Positions 39,868 through 42,872 of a stretch of 64,000 nucleotides of DNA are shown here, one piece after another; the stretch's first letter is position 1, and every line of letters starts with the position of its first letter. Source of the DNA: Verrucomicrobiaceae bacterium (GTDB lineage Bacteria; Verrucomicrobiota; Verrucomicrobiia; Verrucomicrobiales; Akkermansiaceae); the NCBI GenBank assembly GCA_027484055.1, contig JAIXQH010000025.1, positions 62,001-126,000 on the forward strand, read 5' to 3'. The position numbers and the translations under genes are program-made. The notes beneath the pieces were generated by a model. The model worked only from the letters and a program-made list of their open reading frames with translations. It was not told the DNA's origin and did not search any database.

Positions 39868-40848
39868 ATGAACCTTCGACTCCTTCTTCTCTGCTGCCCC
39901 TTGCTCGTGGCCAGCTATTCCGCCACCGCTCAAGTCGCGGAACCCCCACCGCAAGAAACGACTTCCGGCGCTTCACCGCGAGAGGTCGCACTGGACAATC
40001 TTCTTTCCGAGAGAGATTCCGAGCAGAGGCTTCAAGAAGTCATCGCTGCGGCGCGTATCGTTGGCATCAGTGAACAAACGATTTTAGAGGCTCGCTTTCT
40101 CTATCACATCGACCGCCGCGAAGACGACGCTGTCGCAGCGATGCTTCCCGACTTCATCAAACAACGTGACCTTTTCAAAATCGAAGACTCCTCGATCTGC
40201 GGGCAAAAAGAAGATTGGCTGGCCATCAATGAATACGTGCAAGCGATGGCCCTGCTCAAACAAGGCGACAAGGCCGGCTTCAAGTCTCACATCACGGAAG
40301 CATTTTGGCTTAGCCCCCACCAAGCCGCCGCATTCGCACCTCACATCGAGCGCATGCGCCTCGCGGAAGCCATGCAGGCGGTCAAAATCGACTTCGGAAT
40401 GAAGCTCGCCTCCCTGAGTGGGAATGACGCACTCTCACTCAAAGAACTTTCCACCCACCAGAAAGCTCTCGTGCTGCACTTCTGGTCACCTAGCAGTTCA
40501 GAAAGCACTGCCAGCCTTCCCGACTATGCGCTCACAGCGAAATCCCTTGAGGAAAAAGGCATTACCATGGTTTCCATCCTCACTGGCGACGCCACAAAAA
40601 CTCAAGACGCCGCACGTAAGCTCCTCTTACCTCTGGGCCCTAAGCCACCTGGATACTGGCTCATTGACTCCACCGACCACCCCCTTGCTAAAGAACTCAG
40701 AGTTCAGACATTGCCCTTGGTCGTCCTCGTCTCTAACGAAGGAGGCATTCTCTTCAACGGCGAACCCGGTGATGATGACTTCTGGACCGCGCTGATGAAA
40801 ATCGATCCGAGCATCCGCCGTCCAGAAATGACAGGACCACCCGATTAG
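39868..40848 (+). CDS. Exported thioredoxin-fold protein without active-site cysteines
   Basis: A 326-residue protein with a signal peptide (MNLRLLLLCCPLLVASYSATA), a helical middle part (residues 40-170) and a C-terminal thioredoxin-like domain. The domain contains ALVLHFWSPSSSES, where redox members have W-C-x-x-C; both cysteines are Ser or other residues. LRVQTLPLVVLVSNEGGILFNGEP has the cis-Pro loop and final strands. It is probably a binding or structural domain rather than a redox enzyme. The start codon follows directly on a terminator stem with no room for a ribosome binding site. Confidence 0.7.
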   Translation: MNLRLLLLCCPLLVASYSATAQVAEPPPQETTSGASPREVALDNLLSERDSEQRLQEVIAAARIVGISEQTILEARFLYHIDRREDDAVAAMLPDFIKQRDLFKIEDSSICGQKEDWLAINEYVQAMALLKQGDKAGFKSHITEAFWLSPHQAAAFAPHIERMRLAEAMQAVKIDFGMKLASLSGNDALSLKELSTHQKALVLHFWSPSSSESTASLPDYALTAKSLEEKGITMVSILTGDATKTQDAARKLLLPLGPKPPGYWLIDSTDHPLAKELRVQTLPLVVLVSNEGGILFNGEPGDDDFWTALMKIDPSIRRPEMTGPPD

Positions 40849-40911
40849 GTTTCAGTTTGGTACGGAGTTTATAGTTAGTAAGGTCGACCTCAAAATAATG
40901 TTTAAGCTTTC

Positions 40912-40924
40912 TGTAAAATTTACA
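40912..40924 (+). promoter_or_regulatory. Candidate BlaI-type operator upstream of the BlaI-histone fusion gene
   Basis: TGTAAAATTTACA is a 13-base palindrome with a single central base, 60 bases before the start codon. BlaI/MecI repressors bind dyads built from TACA/TGTA half-sites, so autoregulation is plausible. The half-site spacing is not the same as in the staphylococcal operators, so this is inference. Confidence 0.45.
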
Positions 40925-40983
40925 CATTTCAACTTGACGCGTATCCGAACGAATAGTCTTCTCATGGACACCAACTCGAAATC

Positions 40984-41745
40984 ATGTCCTCCCCCCTACA
41001 TCCGTCCAATCTAGAATTACAGGCCCTATCGGTCTTATGGCAAGAAGGCCCATCTACGGTATCTACCGTACATAAGACCTTGCCCGACGGAAAAGAACGC
41101 GCTTACACCACCGTCCTGTCGGTGATGCAGAGTTTGGAGCGCAAGAGCTTGGTGAAGCGCGAGTATGTCGGGAAGGCACATGTCTACACTCCCACTTACG
41201 CTCAGGAGGTCATTGTGCAGCATGCCACTCACAATTTTTTGACTAACGCTTTTGGAGGACGCCTCAGTGATGCGCTCCTCGCTATCCTCTCCGCTGGCAC
41301 ATTAACGCTGGAAGAGAAACTAAACATCGAACGCGAACTCAAACGACATAAAACTATGGCTGCCAAAAAATCAGCAAAGAAAGCACCGGTTAAAACCGCC
41401 AAGAAAGCCGTGAAAAAAGTTGCCACCAAAGCTCCGGTGAAAGCCGCTCCAGCTAAAAAGGCAGCACCCAAAGCCCCTGCCAAAAAGGCTCCTGCTAAAA
41501 AGGTAGCCAAGAAAGCAGCGAAGAAGGTCGCTAAAAGCGCTAAAAAAGTGGCCAAAAAAGCCGTGACCAAAACCGTCGCCAAGAAAGCTGCTCCTGCAAA
41601 GAAAGCTGCCGCCCCAGCGAAAAAGGCCGCGCCTGCGAAGAAAGCCGCAGCGCCTGCTAAAAAGGCCGCTGCTCCAGCTCCTGCGAAGAAAGCTGCCGCA
41701 CCTGCTAAAAAGGCAGCACCCGCTAAAAAGGCCGCAAAGAAGTAA
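40984..41745 (+). CDS. BlaI/MecI-type winged-helix repressor fused to a histone-H1-like Lys/Ala-rich tail
   Basis: A 253-residue DNA-binding protein in one uninterrupted frame. Residues 1-122 are a complete BlaI/MecI/CopY-type domain: LELQALSVLWQEGPSTV, YTTVLSVMQSLERKSLVKRE with the recognition helix, AHVYTPTYAQE, and the C-terminal dimerisation helices. Residues 125-253 are a low-complexity tail of AAKKA, APAKK and KKVAK units like bacterial histone H1 homologues (Hc1). An internal ATG at 41356 (MAAKKSAKK) could also start a stand-alone tail protein, but no ribosome binding site is seen before it. No M56/BlaR peptidase is adjacent. A terminator follows. Confidence 0.88.
   Translation: MSSPLHPSNLELQALSVLWQEGPSTVSTVHKTLPDGKERAYTTVLSVMQSLERKSLVKREYVGKAHVYTPTYAQEVIVQHATHNFLTNAFGGRLSDALLAILSAGTLTLEEKLNIERELKRHKTMAAKKSAKKAPVKTAKKAVKKVATKAPVKAAPAKKAAPKAPAKKAPAKKVAKKAAKKVAKSAKKVAKKAVTKTVAKKAAPAKKAAAPAKKAAPAKKAAAPAKKAAAPAPAKKAAAPAKKAAPAKKAAKK
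41356..41745 (+). repeat. Low-complexity Lys/Ala/Pro-coding repeat
   Basis: The DNA coding for the H1-like tail consists of irregular GCN-AAA/AAG units (AAKKA, PAKKA). The same bases read on the opposite strand give a long false open frame rich in Ala, Phe and Leu. Confidence 0.8.
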
Positions 41746-41826
41746 TTCACAACCCACGTTAGGGGCACCGGGCCGCCTGTTTTCACGACAAGCGCCCGTC
41801 TGTCCCTGATCGGGGGTCGGTATTTC

Positions 41827-41861
41827 GGCGGGAGATCCTCAGATCTCCCGCCTCTTTTTTT
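41827..41861 (+). terminator. Rho-independent terminator before tRNA-Val
   Basis: GGCGGGAGATC and GATCTCCCGCC form an 11-bp perfect stem with loop CTCA, followed by TCTTTTTTT. It closes the BlaI-fusion transcription unit. Confidence 0.92.
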
Positions 41862-41933
41862 AGTCAAAAAAGGGGTTGCATCCAACATCACCTCCACCCT
41901 AGCTTCCCCGCACCCCAAGTGGGTATGACCTAT

Positions 41934-42008
41934 GCGCGGTTAGCTCAGTGGTAGAGCACCTCCCTGACACGGAGGGGGTCACTGGTTCGAACCCAGTATC
42001 GCGCACCA
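41934..42008 (+). tRNA. tRNA-Val (anticodon GAC)
   Basis: Acceptor GCGCGGT pairs with ATCGCGC (one G-U). The D arm has AGCTCAGTGGTAGAGC; the anticodon stem is CCTCC/GGAGG with loop CTGACAC (anticodon GAC); the T arm is CTGGTTCGAACCCAG. The encoded CCA ends at 42008. No pseudogene features or nearby integrase. Confidence 0.97.
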
Positions 42009-42032
42009 TCTTTGACCTCTCTTTTCCCTGCG

Positions 42033-42872
42033 ATGAACGCAGTGCCACCCGCACCCGATGAGCTCGCGGCCCTCCTGAGGCTTCTCGATGACGAGACCCC
42101 TGAAGTGAGGACCCAAGTGGCCGAGCGAATCGCCCTCTGCGGTGGTGATCTCAGCGAGTGGCTCGCCACGCAGTCACGCATCTTAAGCAGTCGGGAAAAG
42201 TCGCTATTGGTGAACATGCTCAGTGCCACTCGGCGGGACAATCTAACCCGTGACTGGATTGTCCCCAGCGGTGGCATCTCGGGACTGCGAGAAGACTGGG
42301 ACACCTTCGAGGCCTTACTCCGCACCCTTTCTGATTTCTTGCACGACGGGATTTCACTCCGCCAGGCCCTCTCAGATGCCTTGGATCTACTCGCCGAGGA
42401 AGCTTGTGAAGAAGGCGTAAGCTCGGCCAATGAACTGAGGGCATTTCTTTTTAACGGCACCCGCCTAAGCGGAAACCAGCGAGGTTACCACGACCCGAGA
42501 AACTCGGACCTCGCTTGGTGCATCGAAGAAGGTCTTTCTAACCCCATTGGCCTCTGCGTGATTTACATGCTCGTCGCACGCCGACTCCAATATGAAATAG
42601 AGGGCGTGAATTTCCCCGGCCACTTCATGTGCCGCATTTTCGAGGATGGCTACCCCTTGATCATCGACTGCTATGGCCATGGACAGGTGCACCTCCAAGC
42701 CTCGCTTTTGGAAAGCCCTGAACTCACCCGCTCCCAGCGCGAGATTATCGCTCAGTCTGCCGATGCAGGTAGCATCCTACTCCGCCTGCTCCACAATCTC
42801 AATGACGCGCTGCAGCGGGAAAATCGGGATCAGGACGCACGCATCATTCAGGAACTCATCGACACCCTCTAG
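42033..42872 (+). CDS. SirB1/transglutaminase-like domain protein
   Basis: A 279-residue cytoplasmic protein. A helical N-terminal part is followed by the SirB1-type transglutaminase-like domain: NGTRLSGNQRGYHDPRNSDL, GLSNPIGLCVIYMLVARRL, VNFPGHFMCRIF and LIIDCYGHG. The Cys in GLCVIY, the His in PGHF and the Asp in IIDCY match the Cys-His-Asp arrangement, so catalysis is possible but unproven in this family. ATG at 42033 is preferred to the TTG at 42012. It begins 25 bases after tRNA-Val. Confidence 0.82.
   Translation: MNAVPPAPDELAALLRLLDDETPEVRTQVAERIALCGGDLSEWLATQSRILSSREKSLLVNMLSATRRDNLTRDWIVPSGGISGLREDWDTFEALLRTLSDFLHDGISLRQALSDALDLLAEEACEEGVSSANELRAFLFNGTRLSGNQRGYHDPRNSDLAWCIEEGLSNPIGLCVIYMLVARRLQYEIEGVNFPGHFMCRIFEDGYPLIIDCYGHGQVHLQASLLESPELTRSQREIIAQSADAGSILLRLLHNLNDALQRENRDQDARIIQELIDTL

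Follow-up and report, generated by a model that had tools for sequence, protein, structure and literature searches.

Repressors of the BlaI/MecI/CopY family (PF03965) normally end after their dimer helices. For BlaI and MecI, the portion of the source drawn on here gives TACA/TGTA dyads as the binding sites (PMC7253601). AlgP (AlgR3) and PhaF of Pseudomonas each have an N-terminal domain followed by a long disordered Lys/Ala/Pro tail, and AlgP is described, in the sections of the report cited here, as a DNA-binding protein with a 154-aa KPAA region of net charge +55 (PMC9239181). Chlamydial Hc1/Hc2 are rich in Lys and Ala and have almost no acidic residues. One ORF can also give two products in the same frame, as described for RepR/RepR' of pIGRK and TrfA of RK2 in the cited part of PMC6854812, and HrcQ is, in the partial account used here, an in-frame nested gene whose internal start yields two products from one ORF.

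We analysed a stretch of 64,000 nucleotides, here called the window, in which a BlaI-type repressor gene continues into a sequence for a Lys/Ala tail (Table 1). The initial annotation had read this gene as a BlaI/MecI repressor fused in frame to a 129-residue tail, and we found that it is indeed a single 253-aa ORF whose first half matches PF03965 over the full length of the domain at 81.6 bits, above the curated gathering score, which places it in the BlaI/MecI/CopY family. Its own 4.4-Mb genome has no other PF03965 match (E <= 0.001). The predicted structure runs H-H-H-E-E-H-H-H (mean pLDDT 66), and the top matches in a fold comparison were MecI and BlaI, although weak (best E 1.9e-3, none <= 0.001). 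No M56 (BlaR1/MecR1) peptidase was found among the ten neighbouring ORFs, one of which was without any family match, in agreement with the initial annotation; the adjacent sensor peptidase that marks a bla/mec sensor-repressor pair is thus missing among these ten. The CopY copper repressor model TIGR02698 scored 40.1 bits against a cut-off of 121.95, and the C-terminal CXC copper motif is absent, there being no Cys anywhere in the protein.

From Met125 the tail has a net charge of +46 and a predicted pI of 11.7, and in 79 complete tails the median K+R fraction is 0.43 with at most two acidic residues (D+E) per tail. This is the low-complexity, strongly positive Lys/Ala/Pro composition of H1-like basic tails; it resembles Hc1/Hc2 in its Lys and Ala content and near lack of acidic residues, and AlgP and PhaF in domain order and charge. 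However, Pfam returned no family for the window's tail at E <= 1, and an HC2 profile gave no report at the gene's place in the genome, so that by profile the tail does not belong to the Hc1/HC2 histone H1 homologues. AlgP differs in its N-terminal domain, which the cited sections of PMC9239181 describe merely as predicted alpha-helical; those sections mention neither a separate tail product nor an embedded leader. A literature search with little reach into subscription journals or preprints did not find a BlaI/H1-like fusion or the embedded element described below. As separate observations, a non-repeat KSAKK block, possibly a modification site, lies in the middle of the tail in 57 of the 79 complete relatives (mostly 53-71 residues past the Met), and Lys/Ala-rich N-terminal extensions occur in the same bacterial family on proteins that look by eye like sigma-factor types (L239:874-2001 and L243, minus strand).

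Table 1. Features of the locus, with positions counted from the first nucleotide of the window
Feature	Position	Strand	Remarks
-35-like hexamer TTGACG of the gene's promoter	40934-40939	+	AACTTGACG or a near variant in most printed upstream regions, by eye
Operator-like site TACTA-N6-TNGTA, degenerate in the window's species	40951-40966	.	place inferred from relatives
Full ORF, BlaI/MecI-family domain and Lys/Ala tail	40984-41745	+	253 aa, no stop at the domain/tail junction
PF03965 domain, winged helix and C-terminal helices	41005-41343	+	residues 8-120, 81.6 bits, cut-off 22.6
Embedded nucleic-acid element under synonymous constraint	41245-41376	+	codons 88-131, about 130 nt
Hairpin P1, GGAGGaCGCCTC/GAGGCG.TCCTC type	41255-41280	+	98-100% of cells paired in 72 sequences; changes mostly none or one-sided
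Hairpin P2, CTCT..CCGGC-loop-GCCGG..AGAG type	41288-41317	+	98.3% of cells paired
A/C-rich unpaired leader before the internal start	41318-41355	+	about 38 nt
Internal start codon ATG (Met125), then GCT	41356-41358	+	conserved column
Lys/Ala tail, proposed separate H1-like basic protein	41356-41745	+	129 aa; stand-alone relatives in G167 and five g21 genomes
Intrinsic terminator, 11-pair stem then T run	41827-41852	+	3 terminator-like sites in the window vs shuffle mean 2.0; longest stem here

We looked for the same domain pairing in relatives, as the initial annotation had proposed. Of 36 other genomes of the same genus, 32 have an orthologue (E <= 8.1e-33, tails read); G010, G020, G029 and G033 gave no orthologue match. 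The tail was present in 60 of 63 named contigs, and the other three (L074, L093, L094) end before the tail or at its first residues. Among the carriers are, by record title, the cultured isolates Luteolibacter pohnpeiensis, L. marinus, Haloferula rosea and H. luteola. From the order we sampled 239 genomes, that of the window included, of which 50 had a match of at least 120 bits and 48 had the joined gene, all of which were read. The matches of at least 120 bits in G189 and G153 lack the tail, and one of the 48 (G046) has it in another frame. Among 236 genomes sampled from the class, 18 of the 40 match rows from other orders were read and none had such a tail. In a tree of BlaI domains the 101 joined rows were separate from six other BlaI proteins (97/72). 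A frameshift or assembly artefact was considered and rejected, as the two parts are joined in frame in cultured isolates and single-contig genomes too. Its presence in most of the genus, in isolates and in 48 of the 239 order genomes argues against a sequencing accident, and judged from this comparison the fusion is real and old.

In many of the relatives the gene is preceded by TatD, LysM and a 332-aa TlpA-like protein (a label given by eye, Pfam being silent) and followed by tRNA-Val and a transglutaminase-like gene; in the window tRNA-Val likewise lies downstream, past the terminator-like stem. Nineteen listed genomes of genus g18, which is probably Akkermansia, are without the joined gene, and the seven of these that were searched are also without the TlpA-like and transglutaminase-like neighbours.

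We measured synonymous change in 42 non-redundant sequences of the joined gene, using permutation of codon columns as the null. The ratio of synonymous differences to expectation was 0.57 in codons 88-131, compared with 1.20 for codons 2-86 ahead of them and 1.17 for codons 132-150 beyond, and none of 10000 column permutations gave a window as low as 0.57. The lowest 44-codon windows in the neighbouring TatD, TlpA-like and TrpF genes were 0.96, 0.88 and 0.95. Codon use is normal over the first two thirds of the BlaI domain, nearly frozen from about codon 88 to codon 131, and normal again in the tail. The frozen codons include Leu CTC (68 of 68 at two sites), a Glu GAG (69 of 69) beside a Glu GAA (60 of 61), and GCT for the Ala that follows the Met (63 of 64 in the closer alignment). 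The constraint passes through the ATG to about codon +6 and then ends.

Among the six reading frames across this element, the one best conserved is that of BlaI. Rfam reported only the tRNA above its gathering score in 40600-42100, and the element was unmatched at E <= 5. We built a covariance model, R1, from 72 sequences of the element, the window's copy included; it matches the window at 41242-41364, a copy that belongs to its training set, and it matched 76 of 145 genomes of the family, once in each except G141. We also noted in the +1 frame of 41242-41364 a possible 12-codon leader ORF with an NTG start and a stop inside the P2 loop. This ORF is whole, with GGAGG or GGGGG 8 nt upstream, in 57 of 72 close sequences, in 1 of 13 distant ones and in 7% of synonymous recodings. 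Because the sequence is frozen anyway, these counts do not demonstrate selection for the ORF.

The 72 sequences share the two hairpins P1 and P2, in which 98.6% of cells taken together are paired and most pairs hardly vary. Variation is seen at the loop-closing pair of P2 (57-66), which is CG in 42 sequences, UA in 15, UG in 7, GC in 2, AU in 1 and something else in 5. Double-change cells numbered 21, compared with 6.9 +/- 2.1 in shuffles, and 18 of the 21 lie at this one pair; a slide of -2 likewise yields 21 double-change cells, but with 51.6% paired. The alifold consensus energy of 62 sequences was -25.8, below that of all 200 codon-shuffled sets (mean -24.1). When single sequences were compared with their synonymous recodings no extra fold stability was found (mean z +0.54). 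A third helix, P0, which would join the ends of the element, appeared in the consensus of 62 sequences and was dropped as it is missing from that of 72.

Between P2 and the internal ATG lies the A/C-rich leader, in which no Shine-Dalgarno motif is evident. We found that the unpaired probability from -25 to +15 around the ATG was 0.68, compared with 0.52 in synonymous recodings, and that it was higher in all 22 sequences tested (every fourth of 85). According to the part of PMC7043885 used here, starts that lack a Shine-Dalgarno motif in E. coli and other bacteria are marked by A-rich surroundings that fold weakly. The ATG, which the initial annotation had pointed out, is present in all 69 rows that reach the junction (two contig-cut rows having been dropped), and 88 of the 101 rows of a wider set have it at this column. 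Codon +1 is GCT in 78 of the 81 rows with Ala there (87 rows in total), compared with 25% of 3747 tail Ala codons. Two of the marks of an in-frame nested gene are present, a conserved in-frame internal start codon and an initiation region conserved independently of the protein sequence; the latter was not seen in families f3 and f6.

The remaining rows of the wider set allow the Met and the element to be compared. Seven rows of family f3 (L097, L098, L100, L168-L171) have Met-Ala-(Ala/Val)-Lys-Lys-Lys beyond a longer linker, and six are without the Met. These six are most simply explained by three losses, in a g21 clade of four (100/97), in L162 and in L163, a count read on the drawn tree from Met-keeping nearest relatives and with the placement of L162 and L163, on long branches, unsure. 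Eight rows that keep the Met scored 63.8 to 124.9 bits with R1; L128 is the only one of them that R1 was trained on, and the other seven reach 63.8-95.5 bits. On the Met-less rows L138, L163, L133 and L137 the model scored 27.6, 25.8, 22.8 and 17.9 bits, and on L157 and L162 it gave no match at the place. Within g21, L128 keeps the Met and a long tail and agrees in codon with the genus at 0.71 of element sites (control 0.28), and the four Met-less rows have short tails and an element agreement of 0.22 to 0.44 (control 0.39 to 0.62). Another g21 genome (L254) keeps the Met and the element, at 114.1 bits with R1, with 54 residues from the Met. L021/L061 keep both, yet have just 27 residues from the Met. 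Rows L097-L101, of families f3 and f6, keep the tail Met but gave nothing convincing with R1, which also found no element in genomes G058, G055 and G044 of the same two families. As read in these alignments, the element is decayed where the Met was lost, in six rows and probably three times.

This linkage bears on what the element is. It might be another kind of intragenic regulator, such as an internal promoter for a short RNA, an mRNA processing or stability element or a regulator binding site, and have nothing to do with a translation start at 41356. A constraint of 130 nt exceeds the needs of a bare start, the hairpins lie upstream of the start and Rfam offers no family, all of which would fit such a regulator. 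However, the constraint runs through the ATG and stops at about codon +6, the element decays upon loss of the Met, and an A-rich leader with GCT as second codon has the features of a start site. We consider this explanation improbable.

We then considered tails that occur without a recognisable repressor half. In G256 the profile recognises the domain only at positions 73-124 and single alignments extend back to about 53; since the profile match is limited to these positions, the winged helix is not recognisable. The element of G256 scores 121.3 bits and has the majority letter at 104 of 123 nt, its ATG and 125-residue tail are kept, and the same kind of promoter lies ahead of the gene. In G046 a frameshift close to the end of the BlaI part leaves the intact tail ORF in a different frame; like G256, this is a draft assembly. 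G167, of the same family, has a stand-alone MAAKKK... gene of 204 aa after TatD-, LysM- and TlpA-like ORFs (the first two named by eye), with no R1 match upstream of it (L180). Five g21 genomes have a separate gene for a 58-80 aa MAAKKAAKK... protein, preceded by a hairpin and a 28-34 nt CA-rich leader.

Within these five g21 loci R1 gave matches of 18.9 to 28.1 bits that end at the ATG. In G141 the stand-alone leader is the only R1 match besides the joined gene (E 0.009), and in the four other genomes it fails E 0.1 genome-wide. These weak matches are partly scored from ATGGCxGCA and A-richness, and the likeness to the element may reflect common descent or convergence. The stand-alone genes lie in L210, L213, L215, L216 and L220, and a glutamyl-tRNA-synthetase-like ORF is nearby in L210 and L213 (by eye). 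Two further sets of candidates were rejected: divergent MAAKK frames beside blaI in g21 are 17-aa chance ORFs, and the other Lys/Ala starts in the genomes read, the g21 genes aside, are chance frames or the N-termini of other proteins.

Upstream of the joined gene a consensus promoter scan found no promoter in the region of the -35-like hexamer. TACTA-N6-TAGTA scored 8, 9 and 10 of 10 in 39, 17 and 7 of 101 upstream regions, which are related to one another; mononucleotide shuffles gave 8.7, 0.2 and 0 at these scores. The dyad lies 17 nt after TTGA in 52 of the 75 rows that score at least 7, is perfect in 7 of 8 f3 rows, and overlaps the expected location of the -10 box. The best score in the window itself is 6, at another place than the one listed in Table 1. 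An operator-like dyad in the relatives' promoter may be a likeness to BlaI and MecI and suits self-repression, and we put at about even the chance that the full-length protein represses its own promoter via TACTA-N6-TNGTA. A palindrome at 40912-40924, TGTAAAATTTACA, is also perfect; it was rejected as an operator, and TACTA-N6-TNGTA preferred, because 34 of 100 shuffles contain at least one match within two mismatches and the other printed upstream regions, read by eye, do not have it.

A genome-wide search with TACTA-N6-TNGTA, with counts for genomes including G135, G239 and G158, did not reveal a wider regulon; counts were uneven between genomes, the reversed-pattern control was poor and full palindromes were counted on both strands. 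The pattern is several times commoner than its reverse in some genomes (96 vs 20 in G239) and rarer in the window's own (6 vs 35). We read 17 perfect palindromes in G135: 11 fall deep inside mechanically called ORFs, one falls at the very start of an ORF and five fall between ORFs. Two of the three near sites fetched were on the minus strand, outside the scoring of the script.

Along with the shared frame, our comparison of genomes establishes the synonymous constraint, the hairpins, the open A-rich leader, the joint loss of Met and element, and tails without a recognisable DNA-binding half, and these argue for a separate tail protein, which the initial annotation had raised as a possibility. 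We infer that ribosomes start at 41356, and that the locus is probably an in-frame nested gene pair encoding a tailed repressor and a free basic tail protein. Translation from 40984 would give the BlaI-type repressor with its long basic tail, and translation from the internal ATG would give an H1-like protein of 129 residues, rich in Lys and Ala, that consists of the tail only. The final 37 repressor codons would then also be the 5' leader of the tail, with two hairpins, about 38 nt of unpaired A/C-rich RNA and ATG-GCT, and the start signal seems to be kept by selection for its own sake. The leader may act within the whole mRNA or within a shorter RNA made from an internal promoter. Compared with the short products of RepR/RepR', TrfA and HrcQ, the one proposed here is a low-complexity basic protein without the folded domain of its parent, and its leader is a conserved structured stretch of about 130 nt within the coding sequence of the parent. 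The free tail would bind DNA or another polyanion as AlgP-type tails do; its composition and the cited sections on AlgP (PMC9239181) make binding of DNA or RNA reasonably likely. The repressor, acting on its own promoter, would set the supply of both products.

A rival account, that of a plain fusion, is that only the 253-aa protein is made, its tail giving a non-specific hold on DNA near the operator, with Met125 and the codon bias incidental. It agrees with a frame that is open and in phase in nearly all genomes read, with a BlaI domain that is itself well conserved and with the operator-like site that most close relatives have in the promoter of this gene. However, the needs of the protein do not explain the synonymous constraint, and the open start region, the retention of the Met across linkers of varying length and the retention of tails where the winged helix is absent or unrecognisable also stand against it, which leaves this account very unlikely. 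The proposal of the initial annotation that the long fusion coats DNA beside its site is thus probably half the story: the fusion holds as real and old, but the strongest signal of the locus is the start at 41356. The full-length product may be a site-specific binder with a basic tail, and the outcome that the annotation had named as its refutation, only separate products in proteomics, may be partly true. That the constraint comes at least in part from an overlapping frame is the least probable explanation, for although the +1-frame ORF is far more often whole in close sequences than in recodings and one antisense frame is open through the element (a minus-strand ORF, 41229-41918, is listed), the recoding test is blind to the difference between selection and a frozen sequence that happens to hold an ORF, 15 of the 72 close sequences and 12 of the 13 distant ones do not have the +1-frame ORF, which stops some 50 nt short of the ATG although the constraint continues, KKA repeats commonly leave antisense frames open, and the minus-strand ORF covers the whole tail whereas the constraint ends at codon +6.

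The +1 leader ORF could also regulate the internal start and would hence be compatible with the nested gene pair. A more speculative extension, which we hold as a minority possibility, is that the element belongs to a novel type of embedded leader RNA and acts in the repressor coding sequence as a regulated switch of translation, coupling a site-specific repressor and a free chromatin-type protein from the same codons. The second start might be opened or closed by ribosomes crossing the end of BlaI, by the 12-codon +1-frame leader ORF or by binding of the basic protein itself to the hairpins. If this were true, related leaders on stand-alone Lys/Ala genes would make up a small family of H1-protein leader RNAs.

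We would expect automatic annotation to record this gene as a single BlaI-like regulator with a low-complexity tail. If the nested gene pair is real, a free nucleoid-type protein has been missed, and a start signal has been kept by selection within another gene across a bacterial family. A specific repressor and a protein that coats DNA non-specifically would then come from one ORF, and the genomes would offer a natural series in which the two were parted. Our analysis also suggests that synonymous constraint can reveal nested starts in bacterial draft genomes.
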